Origin: Gammaproteobacteria bacterium
Lineage (GTDB): Bacteria > Pseudomonadota > Gammaproteobacteria > Chromatiales > Chromatiaceae
DNA: 6,058 nt
Reading direction: 5' to 3'
Assembly: GCA_019136395.1 (NCBI GenBank)
Contig: JAGVUH010000654.1
Coordinates: 1-6,058 of the forward strand
Shown here: positions 1 through 6,058 of the stretch, in pieces
Position numbering within the stretch: the first letter of the stretch is position 1
Layout: the number at the start of each line of letters is the position of its first letter
The notes under the pieces: generated by a model
Database searches by the model: none
Seen by the model: only the letters and a program-made list of their open reading frames with translations
What the model was told of the DNA's origin: nothing
Made by a program: the position numbers and the translations under genes

Positions 1-195
1 GACCCGCGCCACCGCGGCGGGCCCACGGTGGTAGTCGCGATTCTCCGGCTTGGCTAACCACTTGTTCTGACTGGCGCATTTGCTGGCCAGCCGGCAGGCC
101 GGCGCCGGGCAATAACGCTGGTGATGGGCATTGCGTGCGTCCGGCGTAAACGGCTGGCCGCCATGCGCACAGCGCCGCAGTCGGTTCTCCCCCAT
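1..195 (-). CDS. IS21-associated small Cys-motif protein, partial (C-terminus outside window)
   Basis: Reading from the ATG at 195-193 gives 65 uninterrupted codons to the window edge, so the C-terminus is missing. The protein begins MGENRLRRCAHGGQPFTPDA and contains YCPAPACRLASK, followed by a WLAKPENRDYHRGP segment. This pattern (CxxCGxxF, then YCxxxxC, then a basic stretch and NxxYxxGP) is familiar from small proteins encoded just upstream of istA in some IS21-family elements; that assignment is from memory. The second Cys of the expected CxxC is Gly here (C9-A-H-G12), so a four-Cys zinc site would be incomplete; C29 and C34 are present. A G-rich SD (GAGGGGGA) precedes the ATG. The gene points away from the element tip near 359, which fits a left-end position with istA/istB further left, outside the window. 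It may be decaying. Confidence 0.6.
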   Translation of the reverse strand, partial: MGENRLRRCAHGGQPFTPDARNAHHQRYCPAPACRLASKCASQNKWLAKPENRDYHRGPAAVARV

Positions 196-238
196 GCCGT
201 CCCCCTCGCCTGACGAGGACACGTGGAGGAAGAAGACT

Positions 239-270
239 GAAGAAGATCCCCGAGGGGAAGAAGATCCCCG
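239..270. repeat. 14-bp direct repeat in a purine-rich stretch
   Basis: GAAGAAGATCCCCG occurs at 239-252 and 257-270, separated by AGGG. The adjacent CCCC/GGGG blocks can also pair. It lies between the small IS ORF and the terminal repeats, so it is probably part of the IS end. No function can be assigned. Confidence 0.55.
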
Positions 271-310
271 GTTCTGAGTTAATTAACCAGGAAGAAAACG
301 GGGAAGAAGC

Positions 311-350
311 GCCAGTTTCAGATCGTCAGATTTCGGCCAGTTTCAGATCG
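311..350. repeat. Paired 15-bp IS terminal repeats
   Basis: GCCAGTTTCAGATCG is present as perfect copies at 311-325 and 336-350, a 25-bp period. They sit 9-48 bp inside the inferred tip at 359. Such repeats are known transposase-binding sites in IS21-type elements. The binding role here is inferred from family knowledge. Confidence 0.55.
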
Positions 351-400
351 GCCGCGACACTATAGGCGGACAACTCATAGAAGGTAATCGTCGTGCTCAT
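326..400 (-). pseudogene. 5' stub of a gene truncated by the IS insertion
   Basis: From the ATG at 400-398 the frame reads MSTTITFYELSAYSVA, continues for eight residues encoded by the IS end, and stops at TGA (328-326), 24 residues in all. The start carries the same RBS block as the neighbouring genes (GGAGAGCAGCC then ATG). It lies only 22 nt downstream of the stop of the 98-aa gene, so the two were very likely co-transcribed from the leader upstream of 719. The native residues end where the GATCTGAAACTGGCC repeat begins, which shows that the insertion removed the rest. I do not recognise the parent gene from these 14-16 residues. The stub should be non-functional. Confidence 0.65.
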
Positions 401-422
401 GGCTGCTCTCCGGTCTCTCGGG

Positions 423-719
423 TTAAACCAGGGCGTCCCACTGGTCAGTGAGCGTCCAGTCCGGCATCCCCTCCACGCGCTTGCCCCAGCGGATCGTGCC
501 CATGAACGCCCGCAGGTCCCAATGGCTCACCAGGCGGTGACCGCCGACCCGGCGCACCAGGGTCTCGGCATAGGTCACCCAGTGTGTGCAATGGGCAAAG
601 TCCTGAATCTGCGTCTCGTCCTTCCCGGGCCGCGTCCAGCGCAGGCGCTGGCCCGGCCGCAGGGTGATCTTCACGGGCTGATCGTTCGCGGTGATCCAAA
701 ATCGTGCGTTCGCGGTCAT
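423..719 (-). CDS. 98-aa hypothetical protein, accessory-element type
   Basis: The ORF runs from ATG 719-717 to TAA 425-423. An SD (GGAGAG) lies 8-9 nt upstream of the start, inside a leader shared with two other genes. Third codon positions are strongly GC, as expected for a real gene here. The N-terminal stretch FWITANDQPVKITLRPGQRL (residues 7-26) recalls hypothetical proteins common on integrative elements, which begin with a similar FWIxAxxxPVxxxLRPGQxL motif; the rest matches nothing I recognise. Residues 38-60 contain Q-D-F-A-H-C-T-H-W, and there are six Trp in 98 residues. There is no signal peptide, membrane segment or nucleotide-binding motif. It is the first gene of what was a two-gene unit; its partner (400-326) is cut by the IS. 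A longer out-of-frame ORF starting in the leader at 750 is rejected. Confidence 0.7.
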   Translation of the reverse strand: MTANARFWITANDQPVKITLRPGQRLRWTRPGKDETQIQDFAHCTHWVTYAETLVRRVGGHRLVSHWDLRAFMGTIRWGKRVEGMPDWTLTDQWDALV

Positions 720-810
720 GGCTGCTCTCCAGAAACTCGCCCCTTCTCATAGGGTTAGGCGATTCCCCTACTTAAAGTGTACCTCCCTGCCGGGCTTGCG
801 CAAGGGGAAT
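720..810 (-). repeat. Shared promoter-leader, copy 1 (upstream of 98-aa gene)
   Basis: This segment aligns with 1433-1522 and 2032-2122, each immediately upstream of a minus-strand start codon. Conserved parts include GGCTGCTCTCC next to ATG, AACTCGC, GGTTAGGCG and TTCCCCTACTT (plus-strand reading), plus the promoter boxes. Copy 1 has one extra base between hairpin and ATG relative to the others, so an upstream peptide frame is not conserved. This argues that the leader acts as DNA or RNA, not as coding sequence. Confidence 0.75.
776..803 (-). promoter_or_regulatory. Sigma-70-like promoter of leader copy 1
   Basis: On the minus strand TTGCGC (803-798) and TACACT (781-776) are separated by exactly 16 bp. 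The same geometry recurs in the other two leader copies, which is the main support because the individual boxes are only moderate matches. The -35 box lies in the perfect palindrome CTTGCGCAAG (795-804), so a dimeric regulator could overlap it. Predicted transcription starts near 769, giving a UTR of about 50 nt. Confidence 0.5.
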
Positions 811-873
811 CTCGCGATATTTCAGAGGCTTATGCTTGACAGGGGAAAACCCCAGGGGCGGCTTTAAGGGCAT

Positions 874-897
874 AAAAAAGGGGGCCTCGCGGCCCCC
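874..897 (-). terminator. Intrinsic terminator of the radC-like gene
   Basis: On the minus strand the stem GGGGGCC (897-891), loop GCGA and GGCCCCC (886-880) are followed by six T. It begins 35 nt after the radC-like stop. It is nearly identical in stem, loop and U-tract to the terminator at 1739-1761, so the two cassettes share terminators as well as leaders. Confidence 0.85.
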
Positions 898-931
898 TCG
901 CTCTCGGTTCGGTGTCGGGTGCGGGCGCCTC

Positions 932-1432
932 TCACAGCAGGCCCCGCTCGGCAAAGCTGGTAATGTCCCGGCCCACGATCATGTGATCCAGCACCCGGAC
1001 CTCCATCAAGCTCTGCAAGTCCTTCAGGCGCTGCGTGATCCGCAGGTCCGCCTGGCTCGGCTCGGTCTCATCCGATGGGTGATTGTGGGCGAAGATCACG
1101 GCCGCGGAGTTCAACTCGAGGGCCGCCTTCGCCACCTCGCGCGGATGGACTGAGGCCCCGTCGATGGTCCCGTAAAAAAGTTCGCGATACTCGATCAGGC
1201 GATGGCGGTTATCCAGGAACAGGACGGCATAGCACTCGTTTTCCCGGCCGGCCAGTTTGGCGGACAGGTACTCTTTGGCGGCTTCTGGGGAAGTGAACAG
1301 GGACCCACGCCCGTAGACGTATCCGACCGCGGACTTGGCCGCGGCGAGGATCTCTTTCGGCGTCGCCGGCCGATAGACACCGGACGCCTCCAGGATCATC
1401 AAGGTCCCGGCATTGATCGCGCTCTTCTTCAT
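932..1432 (-). CDS. radC: RadC-like JAB/MPN-domain protein (mobile-element type)
   Basis: The protein is 166 aa from ATG 1432-1430 to TGA 934-932. It is essentially a lone JAB domain without the N-terminal helix-hairpin-helix region of full RadC (about 220 aa in E. coli), as usual for island and plasmid copies. The metal-binding signature is intact: H116-N-H118-P-S, then D129 in EPSQAD. E84 in RELFYGT is the likely catalytic Glu. Typical flanking motifs [27 protein letters not shown] and [10 protein letters not shown] are present. The family fold is a Zn-dependent JAMM hydrolase-like domain. Its role on mobile elements is not settled and an original DNA-repair role is doubtful. An in-frame upstream start at 1501 would translate the conserved leader and is rejected, because the GAGAG SD directly precedes 1432. 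It is monocistronic between leader copy 2 and its own terminator. Confidence 0.93.
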
Positions 1433-1451
1433 GGCTGCTCTCTGAAACTCG

Positions 1452-1473
1452 CGCCTTCTCAAAGGGTTAGGCG
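1452..1473 (-). promoter_or_regulatory. 5' UTR hairpin, leader copy 2
   Basis: CGCCT (1452-1456) pairs with AGGCG (1469-1473), leaving a 12-nt loop, between the predicted transcript start (about 1481) and the SD. The aligned stem in copy 3 is CGCTT/AAGCG: one pair changes from C-G to T-A with both partners altered. That is a compensatory change and supports RNA structure. Confidence 0.5.
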
Positions 1474-1487
1474 GTTCCCCTACTTTG

Positions 1488-1515
1488 AGGATACCCGCCA
1501 ACCTCGCTATGGCAA
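1488..1515 (-). promoter_or_regulatory. Sigma-70-like promoter of leader copy 2 (radC-like gene)
   Basis: On the minus strand TTGCCA (1515-1510, five of six to consensus) and TATCCT (1493-1488) are separated by 16 bp, the same spacing as in copies 1 and 3. It is the best -35 box of the three. The predicted UTR is about 49 nt. Confidence 0.6.
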
Positions 1516-2031
1516 GGGTTTCTGCGCAAAATAATTCAACTCGATCAATCGCTTAGATGAGCACGCACGGAGAAAGTGAGGACGACGGTCAGGCATAGGG
1601 CCAGGACGCGCCAGGAAGGGCCTGGACGCGCGGGGGCGTCGGAGCGAGAGGGTTAGATGGCGAAGGCCAGGAACGGACCGGCGGGGCGGGGGCGGCTTGC
1701 CCGGGGCTGAGCTGGCCAGGATGAAAGGGCGGCGCCCCAAAAAAAGGGGCCTCGCGGCCCCGTATGGCTTCCCGGGCGGCTTCTCTTCCGCCTCCGGCGC
1801 GAACATCTCATCCAGCTTCTCGACGCACGCCAGGACCTCGCGCTCGTCGTATGGGTCCTCGACCCCGATCTCCTGCAGAATCCGGGCGCAGGTCAGGATG
1901 AGTTCGCGGCGGCACTCGCGCTCCTCGCACTCATTAAAGCTCTGGTCCTCGGGGTTCAAGGTGGCGAGGTTCGCGAAACAATCGCCAAGGTCGCGCAAGG
2001 TATTCTGGAATCGGCAATAGGGCATGTTCAT
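1507..2031 (-). CDS. MPYCRF-type hypothetical protein with read-through C-terminal extension
   Basis: The start ATG 2031-2029 follows a GGAGAG SD in leader copy 3. The N-terminus [18 protein letters not shown] resembles a family of small acidic proteins (usually well under 100 aa) found on mobile elements and plasmids, function unknown to me. Residues 20-82 are acidic and helical in character, with four further Cys (C35, C40, C48, C69). From about residue 91 the frame runs through the terminator at 1761-1739, which encodes [11 protein letters not shown], and on through repeat DNA to a stop at 1509-1507, 174 aa in total. The last 80 or so residues are Arg/Pro-rich and lie in sequence that is non-coding in the paralogous copy. 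The functional protein probably ended near residue 90 and has lost its stop, or the tail is not made because transcription ends first. An in-frame TTG start at 2061 lies in the leader and is rejected. Confidence 0.65.
1739..1761 (-). terminator. Intrinsic terminator inside the 3' part of the MPYCRF ORF
   Basis: On the minus strand GGGGCC (1761-1756), loop GCGA and GGCCCC (1751-1746) precede seven T. It nearly duplicates the terminator at 874-897. Its position within an open frame is unusual and suggests the true gene end was just upstream. Confidence 0.85.
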
Positions 2032-2049
2032 CGCGGCTCTCCGGAACTC

Positions 2050-2073
2050 GCGCTTATTCAAATGGTTAAGCGC
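2050..2073 (-). promoter_or_regulatory. 5' UTR hairpin, leader copy 3
   Basis: GCGCTTA (2050-2056) and TAAGCGC (2067-2073) form a perfect 7-bp stem with a 10-nt loop. It lies between the predicted transcript start (about 2080) and the SD, and is the strongest version of the hairpin. Copy 1 (CCCCT 740-744 with AGGCG 757-761) carries one mismatch. Confidence 0.55.
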
Positions 2074-2086
2074 TTCCCCTACTTAA

Positions 2087-2114
2087 AGGATACCCGCGGG
2101 CCTGGCTTGCGCAA
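2087..2114 (-). promoter_or_regulatory. Sigma-70-like promoter of leader copy 3
   Basis: On the minus strand TTGCGC (2114-2109) and TATCCT (2092-2087) are separated by 16 bp. As in copy 1 the -35 lies within CTTGCGCAAG (2106-2115). Conservation of box spacing across three copies is the support. Confidence 0.55.
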
Positions 2115-2329
2115 GGGTTTCTGCTTAAAAAGACTCCACTTTTCAACCGCCTATCCAGGCGCGTCACACCCAGGTGGAGAAGAGCGCCAGCATAGGGCCA
2201 GGACCTCCCAGGACGGCTCAGGGCGCGCTGGCGGGGCTGATCGATAGGGTTAGATTGGATAGGGCAGGAACGGCTTGGCGGGGCGGCGGCTTGCCCAGGT
2301 CTGCGCTGGGCAGGGTGACCAGGATGAAC

Positions 2330-2474
2330 AGGGCAGGCGTCGCGAGCGGGAGGCTGCGCCTTACCTCAGCACAGCTCTCAGCACGGCTCTTCGCCGCTCA
2401 CCTCACGGCTCCTCACCGCGGCACGGCGTCCAGCTCCTCGCCCTGGATGGCCAGGGCAGGCGTCGCGAGCGGGA
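2330..2474. repeat. 22-bp direct repeat pair and local GC-rich repeats
   Basis: A perfect 22-bp sequence, starting AGGGCAGGCG and ending GAGCGGGA, occurs at 2330-2351 and 2453-2474, and weaker similarity (GGATG) extends upstream of both copies. Between them, short CTCAGCAC/CTCACGGCTC motifs recur at 2364-2420. Overlapping frames are open only because of base composition. Apart from these repeats I see no gene between 2130 and 2530. Confidence 0.6.
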
Positions 2475-2533
2475 CGTTGGTCTACGCCGCTCCCAGCGGC
2501 TCGCCTGGCTCAGCGCGCCGCTGGCCGCTCACA

Positions 2534-2581
2534 ACACGTCTAAGCGGTTGATTGAATTGGGCAATGCGCTATGTCTATGAT
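2534..2581 (+). promoter_or_regulatory. Inverted fragment of the leader's upstream part with a candidate promoter
   Basis: Positions 2536-2558 match the reverse complement of 1536-1558 at about 20 of 23 positions (TCTAAGCGNTTGATNGANTTG). It is therefore a scrap of the leader region in the opposite orientation. It provides TTGAAT (2552-2557) and TATGAT (2576-2581) with an 18-bp spacer, a plausible plus-strand promoter with no convincing gene after it. Confidence 0.35.
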
Positions 2582-2920
2582 TATGGGGTCCTTCCGGGCA
2601 CCTCTGCGCGGGGAGGTTGCCGGCCGCCCGGCGTCCCCTAGACGTAGAAATTGCATTTCGCTTCTGTTTCAAGATGCAACACCGGGCCTAACCATCGGTG
2701 GAATTGGCCCGGTTTAGGCGCGGGTTGGCCTGGCGGAGGTTTATGGCAGAAGAGCAACAGCTCCGAACGCATTTACAAAACCGCAAGGGGACTTCCGGCG
2801 GGCCGCTCTGGACCCTCCGTAGATATCTACGGAGGGTTATGCGCTTGGGGCTTGTAACAGCCCGTGGAAATGCTGGGGCCAGGTTTTAGGTTTTAGACAG
2901 TTAACCGCACCTTTCCCGCC
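2582..2920. other. Gene-poor stretch with several dyads
   Basis: No protein I can name lies here. Visible structure: GCCGG/CCGGC around 2620-2633; TTGCAT (2651-2656) with ATGCAA (2674-2679); ACCGGGCC (2681-2688) with GGCCCGGT (2706-2713); and the 26-bp palindrome at 2812-2837. A 48-codon frame starting MAEEQQLRTH at 2743 has GGAGG only 3 nt upstream and stops at 2889. It is basic and crosses the palindrome. I rate it below the level for a CDS call. Confidence 0.4.
2812..2837. promoter_or_regulatory. 26-bp perfect palindrome
   Basis: ACCCTCCGTAGAT at 2812-2824 is followed immediately by its exact reverse complement at 2825-2837, with no spacer. Chance occurrence is very unlikely. A gapless palindrome this long is a candidate binding site for a symmetric dimer or tetramer, a recombinase site, or a cruciform. 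It has no U-tract, so it is not a terminator. It lies about 140 bp upstream of the toxin-antitoxin operon. Confidence 0.8.
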
Positions 2921-2949
2921 CTTTTTACCTATATCAAGACTTGTATAAT
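2921..2949 (+). promoter_or_regulatory. Promoter of the toxin-antitoxin operon
   Basis: A perfect TATAAT lies at 2944-2949. The -35 region 17 bp upstream (CTTTTT, 2921-2926) is weak. The AT-rich block stands out from its surroundings. The transcript would start near 2956, only about 19 nt before the first ATG of the toxin gene and next to an in-frame ATT at 2957. Confidence 0.55.
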
Positions 2950-2974
2950 TCAGGACATTAAGACCATCACCTTC

Positions 2975-3286
2975 ATGGGCGGAACCCTTGACGCCCTCCG
3001 GGCCTTTCCCGCTGAGGCCAGGCAAGCGGCCGGGTTCCAGCTCGATCGCGTGCAGCGCGGCATGGACCCCTCCGACTGGAAGCCAATGGCTAATATTGGT
3101 ATTGGCGTGAAGGAGATCCGCCTCAAGGAGGAAGCCGGCATCTTTCGCGTGATCTACGTCGCCAGATTTGCCGAGCGCATCTACGTCCTGCATGCCTTTC
3201 AGAAAAAAACCGCGCGCACCGAGCAGCGCGACCTTGAATTGGCACGGAAGCACTATCGGGAGGTAGCCAATGACCAACACCTTTAA
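2975..3286 (+). CDS. RelE/HigB-like toxin (phage-derived Gp49 type) of a type II toxin-antitoxin system
   Basis: From ATG 2975 the protein is 103 aa and ends at TAA 3284-3286. The core reads DWKPMANIGIGVKEIRLKEE, then GIFRVIYVARFAERIYVLHAF, then QKKTARTEQRDLELARKHY, the signature layout of this RelE-superfamily group. K and R residues in VKEIR, FRVIY and FQKKT are where the mRNA-cleaving toxins carry catalytic or RNA-contacting residues. Family toxins are ribosome-dependent mRNA interferases in the cytoplasm. Homologues I recall begin MKxIxFMG, and here the in-frame codons before ATG 2975 read I-K-T-I-T-F with ATT at 2957 in place of ATG. The true N-terminus may be six residues longer with a non-standard start, or the start is 2975 with little SD. 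The gene overlaps the antitoxin gene by 17 nt in toxin-first order, as in higBA. Confidence 0.85.
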   Translation: MGGTLDALRAFPAEARQAAGFQLDRVQRGMDPSDWKPMANIGIGVKEIRLKEEAGIFRVIYVARFAERIYVLHAFQKKTARTEQRDLELARKHYREVANDQHL

Positions 3287-3548
3287 CAGCGTCTGGGACG
3301 CCCTCGAAGACACCCCGGAGCAAGCCGAGAGCATGCGCCTCCGTTCCGTGTTCATGCTGGCCATCGAGCAACACGTCGCCCAGCTTGGCGCGACCCAGAC
3401 GGAACAGGCCCGCCGCCTGGGCATCACCCAGCCACGGCTGAACGATCTATTGCAAGGCCGCATCCACAAATTCAGCTTGGACGCCCTGGTCGATATTGCT
3501 GCCAAGGCTGGCTTGCGGGCCGCGGTTGAACTCAAGGCCGCCGCCTAG
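3270..3548 (+). CDS. XRE/HigA-like antitoxin, DNA-binding
   Basis: The 92-aa protein starts at ATG 3270 with a strong SD (GGGAGG, 3258-3263) six nt upstream, inside the toxin gene, so the two are translationally coupled. Residues about 42-62 (TQTEQARRLGITQPRLNDLL) form the helix-turn-helix, followed by LQGRIHKFSLDALVDIAAKAGL, typical of the small single-domain antitoxins paired with Gp49-type toxins. It should bind and neutralise the upstream toxin and repress the operon promoter near 2944. The operator is not obvious; the palindrome at 2812-2837 is a candidate but distant. The stop TAG is followed by a terminator. The strong antitoxin SD against a weak toxin start would favour antitoxin excess. 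Confidence 0.88.
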   Translation: MTNTFNSVWDALEDTPEQAESMRLRSVFMLAIEQHVAQLGATQTEQARRLGITQPRLNDLLQGRIHKFSLDALVDIAAKAGLRAAVELKAAA

Positions 3549-3569
3549 TTGCCTCTAAACCCAGCACGG

Positions 3570-3634
3570 CCCCGCGACGGCCGACCCTACCGCAGGACTC
3601 CTCGACAGGGTTGCACCGGCCGCGGGGTTTTTTT
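3570..3634 (+). terminator. Terminator of the toxin-antitoxin operon
   Basis: CCCCGCG-AC-GGCC (3570-3582) pairs with GGCCGCGGGG (3618-3627) except for a two-base bulge, followed by seven T. An inner ACCCT/AGGGT pair (3584-3588, 3607-3612 region) can extend the structure. It begins 21 nt after the antitoxin stop. Confidence 0.8.
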
Positions 3635-3642
3635 CTGCCCGA

Positions 3643-3730
3643 CCATTTTGGTGACCGCACCAAAATGGCCGGTCACTTGCCGCTACCGGCACCATGGTCC
3701 CGCGACCAATCCGAGGATCTCCGCGGATTG
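3643..3730. repeat. Cluster of overlapping inverted repeats
   Basis: CCATTTTGGT (3643-3652) pairs with ACCAAAATGG (3659-3668), loop 6 nt. The overlapping GTGACCG (3651-3657) pairs with CGGTCAC (3670-3676), so the two hairpins are alternatives. CAATCCG (3707-3713) pairs with CGGATTG (3724-3730). No U-tracts follow. They could be operator sites or IS-derived ends. Confidence 0.6.
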
Positions 3731-3880
3731 TGAGTTTGCGCAGCATCTTCAACGCGCTCAGGCGCGGATAGGTCCCGGCCCGCAGATGGCTCTGGTCATG
3801 CTGACGCCAGTAACCGGCCCCTACGCGGGAGATCTGATTGGCGGAGTCGTGGAACCAATGATCAACCTCGAGGAGGTGCG
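3708..3880 (-). pseudogene. Possible transposase C-terminal relic
   Basis: The minus frame contains LEVDHWFHDSANQ, then YWRQHDQSHLRAGTYPRLSA, then LKMLRKLTIRGD, with mostly GC third positions. The D-Q-S-x-x-R-x-G-x-x-P pattern followed by an L-rich RKL segment resembles the C-terminal region of IS4/ISAs1-type DDE transposases (E-D-x-S-x-x-R-x-G-x-x-P then LRNLAI). The catalytic Glu segment expected before it is not recognisable and there is no credible start. A plus-strand frame is open over the same stretch, so this call is tentative. Confidence 0.25.
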
Positions 3881-3904
3881 GCAAAAAAATGGAAAAGGGC
3901 CTCC

Positions 3905-3967
3905 GGGGGTAGTACCAAAAGTATCAAAACCCCTCTGACGGCGACTTTTGATACTTTTGCTACCCCC
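3905..3967. repeat. Long inverted repeat with AAAAGTATCAAAA arms
   Basis: GGGGGTAG (3905-3912) and AAAAGTATCAAAA (3917-3929) face TTTTGATACTTTT (3946-3958) and CTACCCCC (3960-3967). The arms match at 21 positions, broken by a 3-base excess on the left. The 16-nt centre is CCCCTCTGACGGCGAC. Downstream of the DUF488 gene it could fold in that transcript, but no U-run follows directly. It may also be two IS ends facing each other, or a short palindromic transposable repeat. Confidence 0.75.
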
Positions 3968-4067
3968 TCCCCAGGGGCATTTGAAAAAAATTCCCGGTCG
4001 CGGCACCCGGCGCCCTGCGCTGGAGACCTGATCTGGGGAATCAAAGGAGCCAGTGGTTCGCTCCCGG

Positions 4068-4124
4068 TGGAGGCATGAACGCCTGGAGGGAATGATCTCC
4101 TGGAGGAGATGAAAACGCAGTGAC
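4068..4124 (+). other. Three tandem overlapping mini-ORFs in a 17-bp repeat
   Basis: Units TGGAGGCATGAACGCC (4068-4083), TGGAGGGAATGATCTCC (4084-4100) and TGGAGGAGATGAAAACGC (4101-4118) are imperfect tandem repeats. Each carries GGAGG just before an ATG. The frames encode MNAWRE, MISWRR and MKTQ, and each stop overlaps the next start as ATGA (4092-4095, 4109-4112). SD-ATG spacing is only 1-2 nt, too short for good initiation, so translation is uncertain. It may be a degraded leader peptide region or only a repeat. Confidence 0.4.
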
Positions 4125-4499
4125 TTAGAAGAGTTGGCCCTGGTGGGTTCCGCTGTCCCATTCCGGAACCGTCACCCCGAGTGCCCGCTCAAACCAATCC
4201 GCCACCAGGCGCCGATGGCACCAGTTGCTGGCGGTGAAGGGTGGGCGCTCCCAACAGAGAAGAACGGGCTCCTGGTCCCCGGCCAGGCGGTGGAGATCAT
4301 CCCAGACCTGCAGGGGATCGAGGGCATTCAGGATCGCCGCATAGCGCGGCACATAGAGCGCCTGACTCATTTTGAGCATGTCGGCATCCGGTGCCAGGGC
4401 GCGGAATTGGCGGTAGCCCGCGGGGGTGCCCCGGGGGGCATGGCGGGCGATGGAGATCCGGCCGGGTCCGGTGTAGGTGAAGAAACTGGCGGTTTTCAT
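4125..4499 (-). CDS. DUF488-family protein
   Basis: The 124-aa protein starts at ATG 4499-4497 (MKTASFFTYTGPGRISIARH) and ends at TAA 4127-4125. The hallmark of the family is present: PVLLCWERPPF (78-88), then NWCHRRLVADWF (92-103), with Cys82, Glu84 and the C94-H-R-R motif. The family's function is uncharacterised; the conserved Cys/His/Arg cluster suggests a catalytic or metal-binding role. The SD GGGAGAG sits in GGGAGAGCAACC before the ATG, the same block as in front of the three leader genes, although the rest of the leader is absent. This start is preferred over one six codons upstream (MPGRAT), which would lie over the SD. The residues at 38-55 (DADMLKMSQALYVPRYAAIL) differ from the usual DUF488 sequence I recall, so the fold of this part is less certain. 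Confidence 0.85.
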   Translation of the reverse strand: MKTASFFTYTGPGRISIARHAPRGTPAGYRQFRALAPDADMLKMSQALYVPRYAAILNALDPLQVWDDLHRLAGDQEPVLLCWERPPFTASNWCHRRLVADWFERALGVTVPEWDSGTHQGQLF

Positions 4500-4531
4500 G
4501 GTTGCTCTCCCTGGCAAGGGGTGATGATTTA

Positions 4532-4537
4532 ATTATA
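4532..4537 (-). promoter_or_regulatory. Candidate -10 box for the DUF488 gene
   Basis: The minus strand reads TATAAT at 4537-4532, 33 nt upstream of the start, in a local AT-rich patch. No good -35 stands at 16-18 bp, and a TTGACG directly abuts the -10. It is unlike the promoter of the shared leaders, so this gene is controlled differently despite its similar RBS. Confidence 0.45.
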
Positions 4538-4639
4538 CGTCAACCAATTGTTTTCGCTCAGTTAATCGTCCACTCCGGAGCTTATGGTTATCGATATACG
4601 CTGGCGTTTTTTAGCCCGGAGACTCTCTGCAAGCACGCA

Positions 4640-4967
4640 ATGAGAGTACTCACGGTCTCTGCGGGCGTCGACAACAACCTCCTGATGGTGACCGGTTGCG
4701 GACATTGCAGGGCCATGCTGAGGTTCGGTGTCGCTGATGAGCCCGAAGAGACCCACCTGGGTTCGTGCCACCCTGATTTTTCGGCCGCCACAACCAGGCT
4801 TGGTCGAGTATCTCCAGCGACTGTGCATTGAGGACGAGGACCTCAGTCGCCAAGGCCGAGGCTCTGTGTTGGCAGCGCTGGAAAGCTGGCCAGTGACCCG
4901 GACCCCAATACCTGGGAGCTGGTCACACCGCTGGCCTTACCCTTCGTGCCCTGACCCACGGGAGTGA
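4640..4967 (+). pseudogene. Frameshifted zinc-ribbon-like small gene
   Basis: From ATG 4640 one frame reads MRVLTVSAGVDNNLLMVTGC, then GHCRAMLRFGVADEPEETHL and GSCHPDF, with C20xxC23 and C43-H44 as a possible zinc site. After five T at 4777-4781 the frame one base further on reads RPPQPGLVEYLQRLCIEDED, then LSRQGRGSVLAALESWP, and runs to TGA 4965-4967. Removing one T joins the halves as CHPDFRPPQPGLVEYL, a natural-looking protein of about 108 aa. A single-base insertion or a sequencing error in the T-run is the simplest reading. No clear SD precedes 4640, so the start is uncertain too. The family is not recognised. The neighbouring DUF488 gene is divergent. Confidence 0.4.
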
Positions 4968-5042
4968 TGGTGTTGACGAGTCCACCCCGGGCACGACCTC
5001 AACCCCAGGCGAACCCCTCTTCCAGCGAGGGCAAAAAAAGGC

Positions 5043-5072
5043 TTGACGTCTCCCCCGGGTTTCGGCTCTACT
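5043..5072 (+). promoter_or_regulatory. Candidate promoter before a short terminated transcript
   Basis: TTGACG (5043-5048) and TCTACT (5067-5072) lie 18 bp apart. The -35 matches five of six, the -10 four of six. It is positioned to start a transcript of roughly 95 nt ending at the terminator at 5139-5175. Confidence 0.35.
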
Positions 5073-5078
5073 TTTGCT

Positions 5079-5175
5079 CAAGCGCCGATTTGAGTATCAG
5101 CTTGCGGGCGCTCTATAAATCCAGCTTAAGCGGCCCGCAAAACCCGCTTTGGCTCCCCAGCCCAGCGGGTTTTTT
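5079..5175 (+). ncRNA. Candidate small structured RNA or attenuator
   Basis: Between promoter and terminator three helices compete: AGCGCC (5081-5086) with GGCGCT (5107-5112); TTGCGGGC (5102-5109) with GCCCGCAA (5133-5140); and the terminator AAAACCCGCT (5139-5148) with AGCGGGTTTT (5164-5173). The first excludes the second, and the second touches the third by two bases. This could be a free-standing sRNA or an attenuator ahead of the small ORF and metK. I see no match to known SAM riboswitch cores. A plus frame of 88 codons crosses this region and its terminator and is not believed. Confidence 0.3.
5139..5175 (+). terminator. Strong intrinsic terminator
   Basis: AAAACCCGCT (5139-5148) and AGCGGGTTTT (5164-5173) form a perfect 10-bp stem with an inner GGCT/AGCC pair (5151-5154, 5159-5162), ending in a run of six T. 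The A-run on the left makes it usable in both directions. Confidence 0.85.
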
Positions 5176-5247
5176 GTTGGGCGTCGCCACGTTAACGACA
5201 ACTTGCCGGGCGACTGAGAAATGCGGCTAAAGCGTCACCGCCTCTTC

Positions 5248-5290
5248 GCCCCCGCGAGGCCGGTTACGCCGGTCCAGCCGGGGGCAGGAG
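5248..5290 (+). promoter_or_regulatory. Hairpin abutting the RBS of the small ORF
   Basis: GCCCCCG (5248-5254) pairs with CGGGGGC (5279-5285), with an inner CCGG/CCGG (5260-5263, 5269-5272) around TTACG. The 3' arm ends at the base before AGGAG (5286-5290), the SD for ATG 5298. It could modulate initiation. No U-run follows, so it is not a terminator. Confidence 0.5.
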
Positions 5291-5297
5291 CAGCTTC

Positions 5298-5474
5298 ATG
5301 GTCATTACCGATCCCCTTGCCCGCCCGCGCGGTCCCCGCACCGCGGAAGCCACCGGCCGTTTCAGCCTCCGTCTGCCCGACCCCTCGCGTCTGCCTCGAC
5401 GGCCCCAACCCCACCCGGCGCCCCCACCGGCACTGGAGATCCCGCTGCGCCCGCGCTGGCTGGGGTGGCGTTAG
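5298..5474 (+). CDS. Small 58-aa hypothetical protein upstream of metK
   Basis: ATG 5298 to TAG 5472-5474 gives 58 residues starting [20 protein letters not shown] and followed by [23 protein letters not shown] sits seven nt upstream of the start, the best SD in this part of the window. The protein is Arg/Pro-rich and basic, without a membrane segment or Cys, and probably disordered. After about residue 30 another plus frame stays open toward metK with Ala/Pro-rich composition, so a frameshift could have shortened the protein; this cannot be decided here. It ends 109 nt before metK and is likely co-transcribed with it. No family recognised. Confidence 0.45.
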
Positions 5475-5583
5475 CCCCTGCCGCACCATTCATCCTGGAC
5501 TGGCCCACCGCACGGGCTGGGGGGATTTGTTCGCGCTTGCCGACCCCGACTTGTCGTCGAATGCGGCTAAACCGGAGTCTGCC

Positions 5584-6058
5584 ATGACACCCCATCACGG
5601 TCTGTTTACCTCGGAATCCGTCTCCGAGGGTCATCCCGATAAGCTCGCCGATCGCATTGCCGATGCCCTCCTCGACGAATTTCTCCGCCTGGAACCTGAC
5701 GCCCGCGTCGCCTGTGAAACCCTCCTGGCCGACCAGTGCGTCGTCGTAGCGGGGGAGTTTCGCACCCGGGAGTGGGCCGCCTTCCGCCAGGTCCGGGAGC
5801 AAACGGTCCCCCTGGTGACCCGGGTCCTGCGCGAGGCCGGCTACGGCAGCGCCGCCACTGGGATCGATCCCGACCGCTGTGAAGTCCAGGTGCGCTTCAA
5901 TCGCCAGTCCGGCGATATCGCCCAGGGGGTCGACCAGGCCGGTGGTCAGATCGGCGCGGGCGACCAGGGCCTGATGTTCGGCTACGCCTGTGACGAAACC
6001 CCCGCCCTGATGCCGGCGCCCATCGTGTTTGCCCATCGCCTCATGCAGCGCCATGCCG
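5584..6058 (+). CDS. metK: S-adenosylmethionine synthetase, N-terminal part (runs off window)
   Basis: ATG 5584 follows CCGGAG six nt upstream. The 158 residues in the window cover less than half of the usual 380-400. The protein forms SAM from ATP and methionine as a cytoplasmic tetramer with Mg2+ and K+. Key positions align to E. coli MetK with an offset of 3: H17-P-D19-K20 (ATP and Mg), E45 in VACET (K+), E58 in AGEF (methionine), Q108 in [11 protein letters not shown], and D127 in the loop [12 protein letters not shown], followed by [15 protein letters not shown]. All N-terminal active-site residues seen are present. The region around 60-105 ([20 protein letters not shown] and CEVQVRFNR) diverges more from the chromosomal type, which fits an accessory copy. 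A long antisense frame over it is a shadow. The location beside IS and toxin-antitoxin genes suggests a second copy, but the window cannot show whether another exists. Confidence 0.95.

Follow-up and report, generated by a model that had tools for sequence, protein, structure and literature searches.

A promoter-leader repeat precedes three unrelated small genes in a gammaproteobacterial contig

The window analysed here is a 6,058-nucleotide stretch of gammaproteobacterial DNA (GenBank assembly GCA_019136395.1, contig JAGVUH010000654.1, positions 1 to 6,058). It carries three minus-strand copies of a promoter-leader unit, each directly before one of three unrelated small genes, here called g719, g1432 and g2031 after the positions of their start codons. 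The repeat before the three genes is real, and its boundaries are sharp at the -35 hexamer and at the ATG. Judging from the sequence, we propose with a probability of roughly 0.55 that the unit is a cassette copied within an accessory, partly phage-like island, that its promoter is active, that a shared regulator acts at its core and that the three genes are co-regulated. The evidence comes from this window and one related genome, G815. The relevant features are as follows.

720 to 806, minus strand: promoter-leader copy 1, before g719 (repeat search, core pattern search, self-match scoring); -35 TTGCGC at 803-798, -10 TACACT at 781-776, core pattern at 753-774
1433 to 1531, minus strand: promoter-leader copy 2, before g1432 (repeat, pattern and promoter scans); -35 TTGCCA at 1515-1510, -10 TATCCT at 1493-1488, core pattern at 1465-1486
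2032 to 2140, minus strand: promoter-leader copy 3, before g2031 (repeat and pattern searches, G815 comparison); -35 TTGCGC at 2114-2109, -10 TATCCT at 2092-2087, core pattern at 2064-2085
423 to 719, minus strand: g719, 98-residue orphan protein (open reading frame list, profile searches, homologue search)
932 to 1432, minus strand: g1432, 166-residue RadC-type JAB protein (profile searches)
1783 to 2031, minus strand: g2031, small phrog_8760 protein (PHROG match, E 5.6e-10)
878 to 899, minus strand: terminator-like hairpin and T run after g1432 (repeat D8 and terminator scan)
1746 to 1761, minus strand: terminator-like hairpin and T run after g2031 (repeat D8 and terminator scan)
1593 to 1724, minus strand: upstream block of g1432, paralogous to 2190-2318
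2190 to 2318, minus strand: upstream block of g2031, largely kept in G815

Anatomy and strength of the repeat

A repeat search of the whole window returned a three-copy direct repeat at 716-829, 1428-1541 and 2027-2140. Together with the core pattern search, it bears out the positions at which the first-pass annotation of this DNA had placed three leaders. The shared unit is ~88 bp long and consists, on the minus strand, of a TTGC-type -35 hexamer, a spacer of 16 bp in all three copies, as first described, and a TAYMCT -10 hexamer. The distance from the -10 to the ATG, originally given as 56-57 bp, is 55-56 nt on recounting. The core AGTAGGGGAANCGCYTAACCNT begins 3 nt past the -10, at 772, 1484 and 2083, and the near-invariant core, AGTAGGGGAANCGCYTAACC, lies at or just past the expected transcript start. 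All offsets in the leader comparisons below count from the first base of AGTAGGGG, the first core base, and the comparisons are ungapped.

The repeat stands far above chance. With up to 3 mismatches, the core pattern matched three times in the window and never in 200 shuffles. The best self-match scores of the leader pairs were 51.5, 35.5 and 35.0, whereas 60 dinucleotide shuffles reached 17.0 at most. The copies were first described as near-identical, which is true of the core only (19-21 of 22 positions in every pair of copies) and too strong over the full 114 nt, where identity to the middle copy is 61% and 78% for the two outer ones. Downstream of the core, identity drops to 14-18 of 23. 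At offsets -50 to -95 the copies agree at only 4-9 of 20-25 positions; between -50 and -32, the g1432 and g2031 leaders agree at 14 of 18. The g719 copy retains the unit from about the -35 to the ATG only. The homology stops at the ATG in all units, with 17-20 of the first 60 coding bases agreeing between them. The proteins are indeed unrelated, as first claimed (best pairwise BLASTP E 0.016 over 21 residues).

The ribosome-binding site had also been counted as part of the module. This assignment fails, as GAGAGCNGCC-ATG is not specific to it: GGAGAGCAGCC-ATG at 402 and GGAGAGCAACC-ATG at 4499 occur without a leader. The form of the ribosome-binding site is a local habit outside the module, and a near form precedes the DUF488 gene at 4499.

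The hairpins after g1432 and g2031 form a repeat that is 96% identical over 23 bases, and the terminator scan of the window found no clear terminator of this type for g719. Upstream of the leaders, and separate from them, g1432 and g2031 share a block of ~130 bp (76% identical over 101 bases and 81% over 42). In the whole window, 2 sigma-70 sites pass a 9/12 cut-off (1.0 in shuffles) and 7 terminators were predicted (6.2 in shuffles). Since these scans yield few promoters and no excess of terminators over the shuffles, it is repetition and placement, not the scans, that carry the argument for promoters and terminators.

The three genes

At the cut-offs used, neither Pfam, NCBIfam nor PADLOC gave a match to the g719 protein, and its only PHROG match is not significant (E 0.14). 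One related cluster was found (P0013, 89% identity), and a search of 369 genomes of the class found the protein in none. Among 19 relatives of G815, one gave a match (E 0.05 over 26 residues), which was judged to be noise.

The g1432 protein scores 145.1 bits against the RadC family PF04002 (cut-off 22.1) and 139.6 bits against TIGR00608 (cut-off 133.85). It stays below the threshold of the full-length RadC equivalog NF000642 (149.3 versus 180).

Direct search found 12 homologues of g2031, and a profile search found 56 proteins, those 12 included. Their N-termini are well conserved: all 11 aligned homologues start with MNM(P/S)YCRFQNT, and 5 of 6 further ones with MNM(P/S)YCRF(Q/E)NT, the sixth (P0055) carrying an N-terminal extension. 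The g2031 start codon is supported because the homologues begin at this ATG. A reading in which the protein would be extended N-terminally from a TTG through the leader, which is open in g1432 and g2031, was rejected, as g719 is out of frame and the g2031 homologues start at the ATG. At the other end, the homologues are 83-84 residues long in 11 of 12 cases, and the g2031 frame of the window is open past that point. With no stop where its close homologues end, the frame passes its own terminator-like hairpin into the next leader. The missing stop may reflect a stop loss or a sequence error. AlphaFold predicts three helices for g2031, but the model is poor, with a mean predicted local distance difference test score of 62.5.

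Pfam, PHROG and NCBIfam profile searches identified no recognisable regulator among the three genes, and the core pattern search of the window found no leader at the helix-turn-helix (HTH) gene at 3270. PHROG families were matched by g2031, g1432 and the gene at 4499 (g4499).

The leader in a related genome

In contig C119 of G815, the leader precedes a g2031 homologue (96 bases at 99% by blastn). The two leaders are identical at 88 of 89 positions between offsets -36 and +53 and at 42 of 54 between -90 and -36. The G815 contig starts inside the g2031 homologue, so the comparison covers the upstream side. In the same blastn search, 18 of 37 other genomes gave short matches only (E 0.004 or worse). 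A three-mismatch pattern search of G815 and 7 relatives recovered no more than the same single match, against 5 for the reversed control.

The surrounding island is partly conserved. The DUF488 gene is present in the same order in G815 (91% identical over 378 bases). The window's Gp49/HTH pair is replaced there by endonuclease/VRR-NUC-like and minor-tail-like genes according to PHROG matches; the VRR_NUC match reaches 23.7 bits, compared to a Pfam cut-off of 23.8. In G815 the search for a g719 homologue was negative, and the single RadC match is 66% identical, in a frame of 234 residues. The host of the window is probably close to the genomes G814-G817, because positions 1-360 are 91% and positions 5032-5476 84% identical to G816, and because of the island in G815.

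Searches for the leader elsewhere

The leader is rare. An exact pattern had no match in the genome_contigs and viral_contigs collections; this pattern fits only the g1432 copy perfectly and could miss the other forms, including that in G815. A second, looser scan of the viral contigs found no leader match either. One viral contig (L135) matched a 19-base pattern by chance, inside collagen-like repeats and with no promoter score around it. The core was found in 1 of 210 genomes of the order, which is G815 (the search was reached via L026, Thiorhodococcus). A sample of 369 genomes of the class gave G815 and 2 further two-mismatch matches, compared to 8 for the reversed control.

A weight matrix built from the window's own three copies was used to scan loci with relatives of the RadC-type protein, 80 of them genomic (the best 80 of at least 569 confirmed) and 49 from viral contigs. 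The leader is absent from these 129 loci and one plasmid stretch (2.07 Mb together). The full-length matrix scores 109-113 in the window and at most -3.6 outside it, and the 40-base middle part of the leader scores 57-59 in the window, compared to 20.6 at best outside. The first-pass annotation had named, as speaking against its idea, homologous genes that lack the leader combined with a leader that never recurs before other genes. Half of this was observed: the 129 RadC-relative loci lack the leader, but the g2031 homologue in G815 keeps it. In the searches made beyond the window, the leader was seen before no gene other than this homologue.

Plasmid and phage collections added little. With 1.6 kb of the window as query, 119 plasmid records matched, and the 20 listed do so in the RadC region; among phages, 15 Salinibacter records matched over 38 bases. 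The leaders alone matched no phage and, over 25 bases at E 4, one plasmid. Neither the g719 nor the g2031 protein has a match in the plasmid collection; in 3 Pseudomonas phage records, g2031 is matched over 21 residues.

Origin and possible function of the repeat

In the mechanism that we favour, the cassette would span the region from the -35 to the start codon. It is probably native to g2031 and may have been copied outward to the two neighbours; an origin at g2031 appears most likely because this gene keeps the leader in the related genome. Each copy would drive one small gene. Separate transcription units with one type of control region are suggested by the near-identical terminators that close two of the three units. 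The leader would act as a sigma-70-type promoter, and the core would be the likeliest place for a shared regulator to bind, be it a repressor on the DNA or a factor that acts on the 5' leader at the RNA level. If such a regulator acts at the core, the three genes would rise and fall together. The source organism is probably a gammaproteobacterium related to G814-G817. In this form the data support the earlier proposal that unrelated small genes share a control region, with the possibility of one small regulon. A broader version is doubtful. It makes the 22-base core at the transcript start the target of a regulator specific to this family of islands, and the leader and terminator a plug-in cassette that recruits new small genes to an establishment or moron regulon, of a type that is not known from Gammaproteobacteria.

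Several observations weigh against the favoured mechanism. The promoters are weak compared to the consensus, and one of three passes the 9/12 sigma-70 cut-off. The 10-bp palindrome CTTGCGCAAG overlaps the -35 in g719, g2031 and G815 and is not intact in g1432; it is a weak operator candidate because it is absent from the g1432 -35. When four leaders are aligned, their common RNA fold has a covariation term of 0, and of its 11 pairs 1 has changed on both sides. Blastn found no second leader copy in G815, and a regulon is thus not seen beyond the window. Finally, the identity to G815 extends past the leader. Window and G815 do not differ over the first 125 coding bases of g2031, third positions included, and have 13 differences in the next 121. 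The leaderless DUF488 gene has the same 5' pattern, with 0 differences over 97 bases around its start and then 30 in 251. Recent recombination, or a constraint on gene starts generally, may explain part of the leader identity. The case for constraint on the core is better made by the three copies of the window itself.

The same 5' conservation is visible in the locus comparison: segments 4443-4539 and 1907-2123, aligned to L137, cover the leader and the first 19-41 codons with 0 and 1 mismatch, and the 3' parts differ by ~11-12%.

The strongest alternative is a plain local duplication. An ordinary promoter would have been duplicated and the genes downstream of it exchanged, with no shared regulation, and the likeness of the leaders would simply reflect how recent the copies are. 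This is consistent with the ~290 bp that g1432 and g2031 share, separate upstream block included (D1-D3), and with the rarity of the leader: the one order genome in 210, the class sample in which the further matches (2) fell short of the reversed control (8), the absence of exact matches from genome_contigs (for a pattern that fits one window copy exactly) and the one copy found in G815. Against this reading, the divergence is uneven, with the core at 19-21 of 22 against 4-9 of 20-25 at offsets -50 to -95. The g719 copy, moreover, retains only the part from about the -35 to the ATG. We regard duplication without regulation as rather unlikely.

The repeated terminator and leader segments could instead mainly serve as recombination handles for the swapping of small genes, as proposed for the PeSL cassettes of T4. 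Near-identical terminators and leaders do flank g1432 and g2031, and the island content does differ between the window, with its Gp49/HTH pair, and G815, with endonuclease-like and tail-like genes. However, this sole visible swap falls outside the leader-bracketed genes, and no second gene was seen between the same leader and terminator. A main role in gene swapping is improbable.

The first-pass annotation had linked the leaders to Frpo-type single-strand promoters, which would allow expression upon conjugal entry. The repetition of promoter regions on a single strand, each before a small gene, fits such a role, as does the occurrence of RadC domains in mobile-element proteins (PMC5512222), and two of the leader folds are somewhat stable, with 10 of 200 (g1432) and 19 of 200 (g2031) shuffles folding as well. 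But the six single-strand DNA folds have z-scores of -0.37 to -1.88, all within 2 standard deviations of the shuffles, and no structure is common to the three single-strand leader folds. The -35 and -10 hexamers pair with mean probabilities of 0.35-0.75, and their partners are inconsistent among the copies. One result points towards the Frpo idea: the g2031 -10 has 4 of 6 bases paired at 0.95-0.99, though with the region by the ribosome-binding site and in a fold that is not common to the other copies. No conjugation or other transfer gene was found among the eight window open reading frames scanned; the origin of transfer (oriT) was not searched for. The Frpo link is unsupported and very improbable.

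Two RNA-level candidates were also rejected. A structured RNA is not indicated by the single folds of the leaders (z -0.12, 0.87 and -0.63), and the two Rfam matches in the window at E<=1 both lie near 5064-5175, none at the leaders. CsrA-type GGA pairs were judged by eye, and the second GGA is missing in g1432.

Comparison with known systems

The arrangement is of a known kind, with similar ones on plasmids and phages. What sets it apart is its sharp boundaries and that it has so far been seen in a single other genome. The closest parallel in logic is the establishment regulon of p576 and the clade II pLS20-family plasmids, with EGeRS2 and the Reg repressor (PMC8708921). As described there, one promoter type is repeated before unrelated accessory-element genes, with a common control site beside the promoter. 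In the window, too, one promoter type stands before several unrelated genes. The p576 operator TTATCCCnnTTATCCC, a dual motif, has no match in the window with up to 3 mismatches. No leader-linked regulator gene was found in the window, and the host is Gram-negative. The EGeRS1 regions of pLS20 are 400-600 bp long and contain inverted repeats, with no detected constitutive promoter (PMC8708921). In contrast, the window leaders are ~88 bp long and have a promoter-like hexamer pair. The Frpo promoters of F-like plasmids likewise recur within an island of small genes (PMC11541004); membership of the window leaders was rejected on the lack of a shared single-strand fold.

In T4-like phages, the PeSL element, a promoter and stem-loop, is repeated between genes in gene-shuffling regions (as cited in PMC4503421). 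The window differs from this in that it appears to be bacterial chromosome near metK, has three leaders and two terminators only, and shows no exchange between them. A phage moron is a gene with its own promoter and terminator in phage DNA. These elements have been used as a criterion for morons (PMC2920897), and g1432 and g2031 may resemble morons in their predicted promoters and terminators, though the scans are no richer than shuffles. Unlike in morons, the same leader is used three times, and no intact prophage was seen in the window; PHROG matches are found in both the window and G815.

Shared control regions are among the few clues to the function of orphan accessory genes. If the three genes are indeed members of one regulon, the condition that activates the leader could offer a way to study the orphan g719 and the phrog_8760 protein. 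The leader could in that case also be used to find further members in related metagenomes.

Other features of the window

Two features lie beyond g719, at the left border of the island.

1 to 360, unstranded: end of an insertion sequence (IS)-like element, left island border, 91% identical to contig C7 of G816
328 to 402, minus strand: 24-residue open reading frame after g719, with the same ribosome-binding site and no leader; the IS-like end at 359 lies inside it

The gene beside the C7 match in G816 has rve and HTH_23 matches below the Pfam cut-offs, and we take the element to be IS21-like. Complete or partial copies of bases 302-359 are present in G814, G815 and G816. The 24-residue frame starting at 402 resembles a gene cut by the IS-like insertion that ends at 359.

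To the right of the leaders, positions 2975-3548 (plus strand) encode the pair of a Gp49/DUF891 toxin-like and an HTH antitoxin-like protein. The DUF488-like protein at 4125-4499 (minus strand) belongs to phrog_2450 and has a weak PADLOC match to PDC-M45C (E 3e-4). In G815, a gene with WYL/WCX domains lies beyond the DUF488 gene (L137, 3056-4246).

A SAM_alpha riboswitch match at 5072-5149 (plus strand) stays below the gathering score (30.2 versus 36) and lies upstream of a metK start at 5584. Among the matches listed for the metK protein (15 rows, 13 genomes), none exceeds 60% identity, and 15 of 398 genomes passed the strict cut-off. All or part of segment 4770-4964 is found at 8 places in G815 and G816 (78-88% identity) and is perhaps a small repeat element. 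An imperfect inverted repeat with 37-nt arms lies at 3893-3982, and a perfect 26-bp palindrome at 2812-2837.

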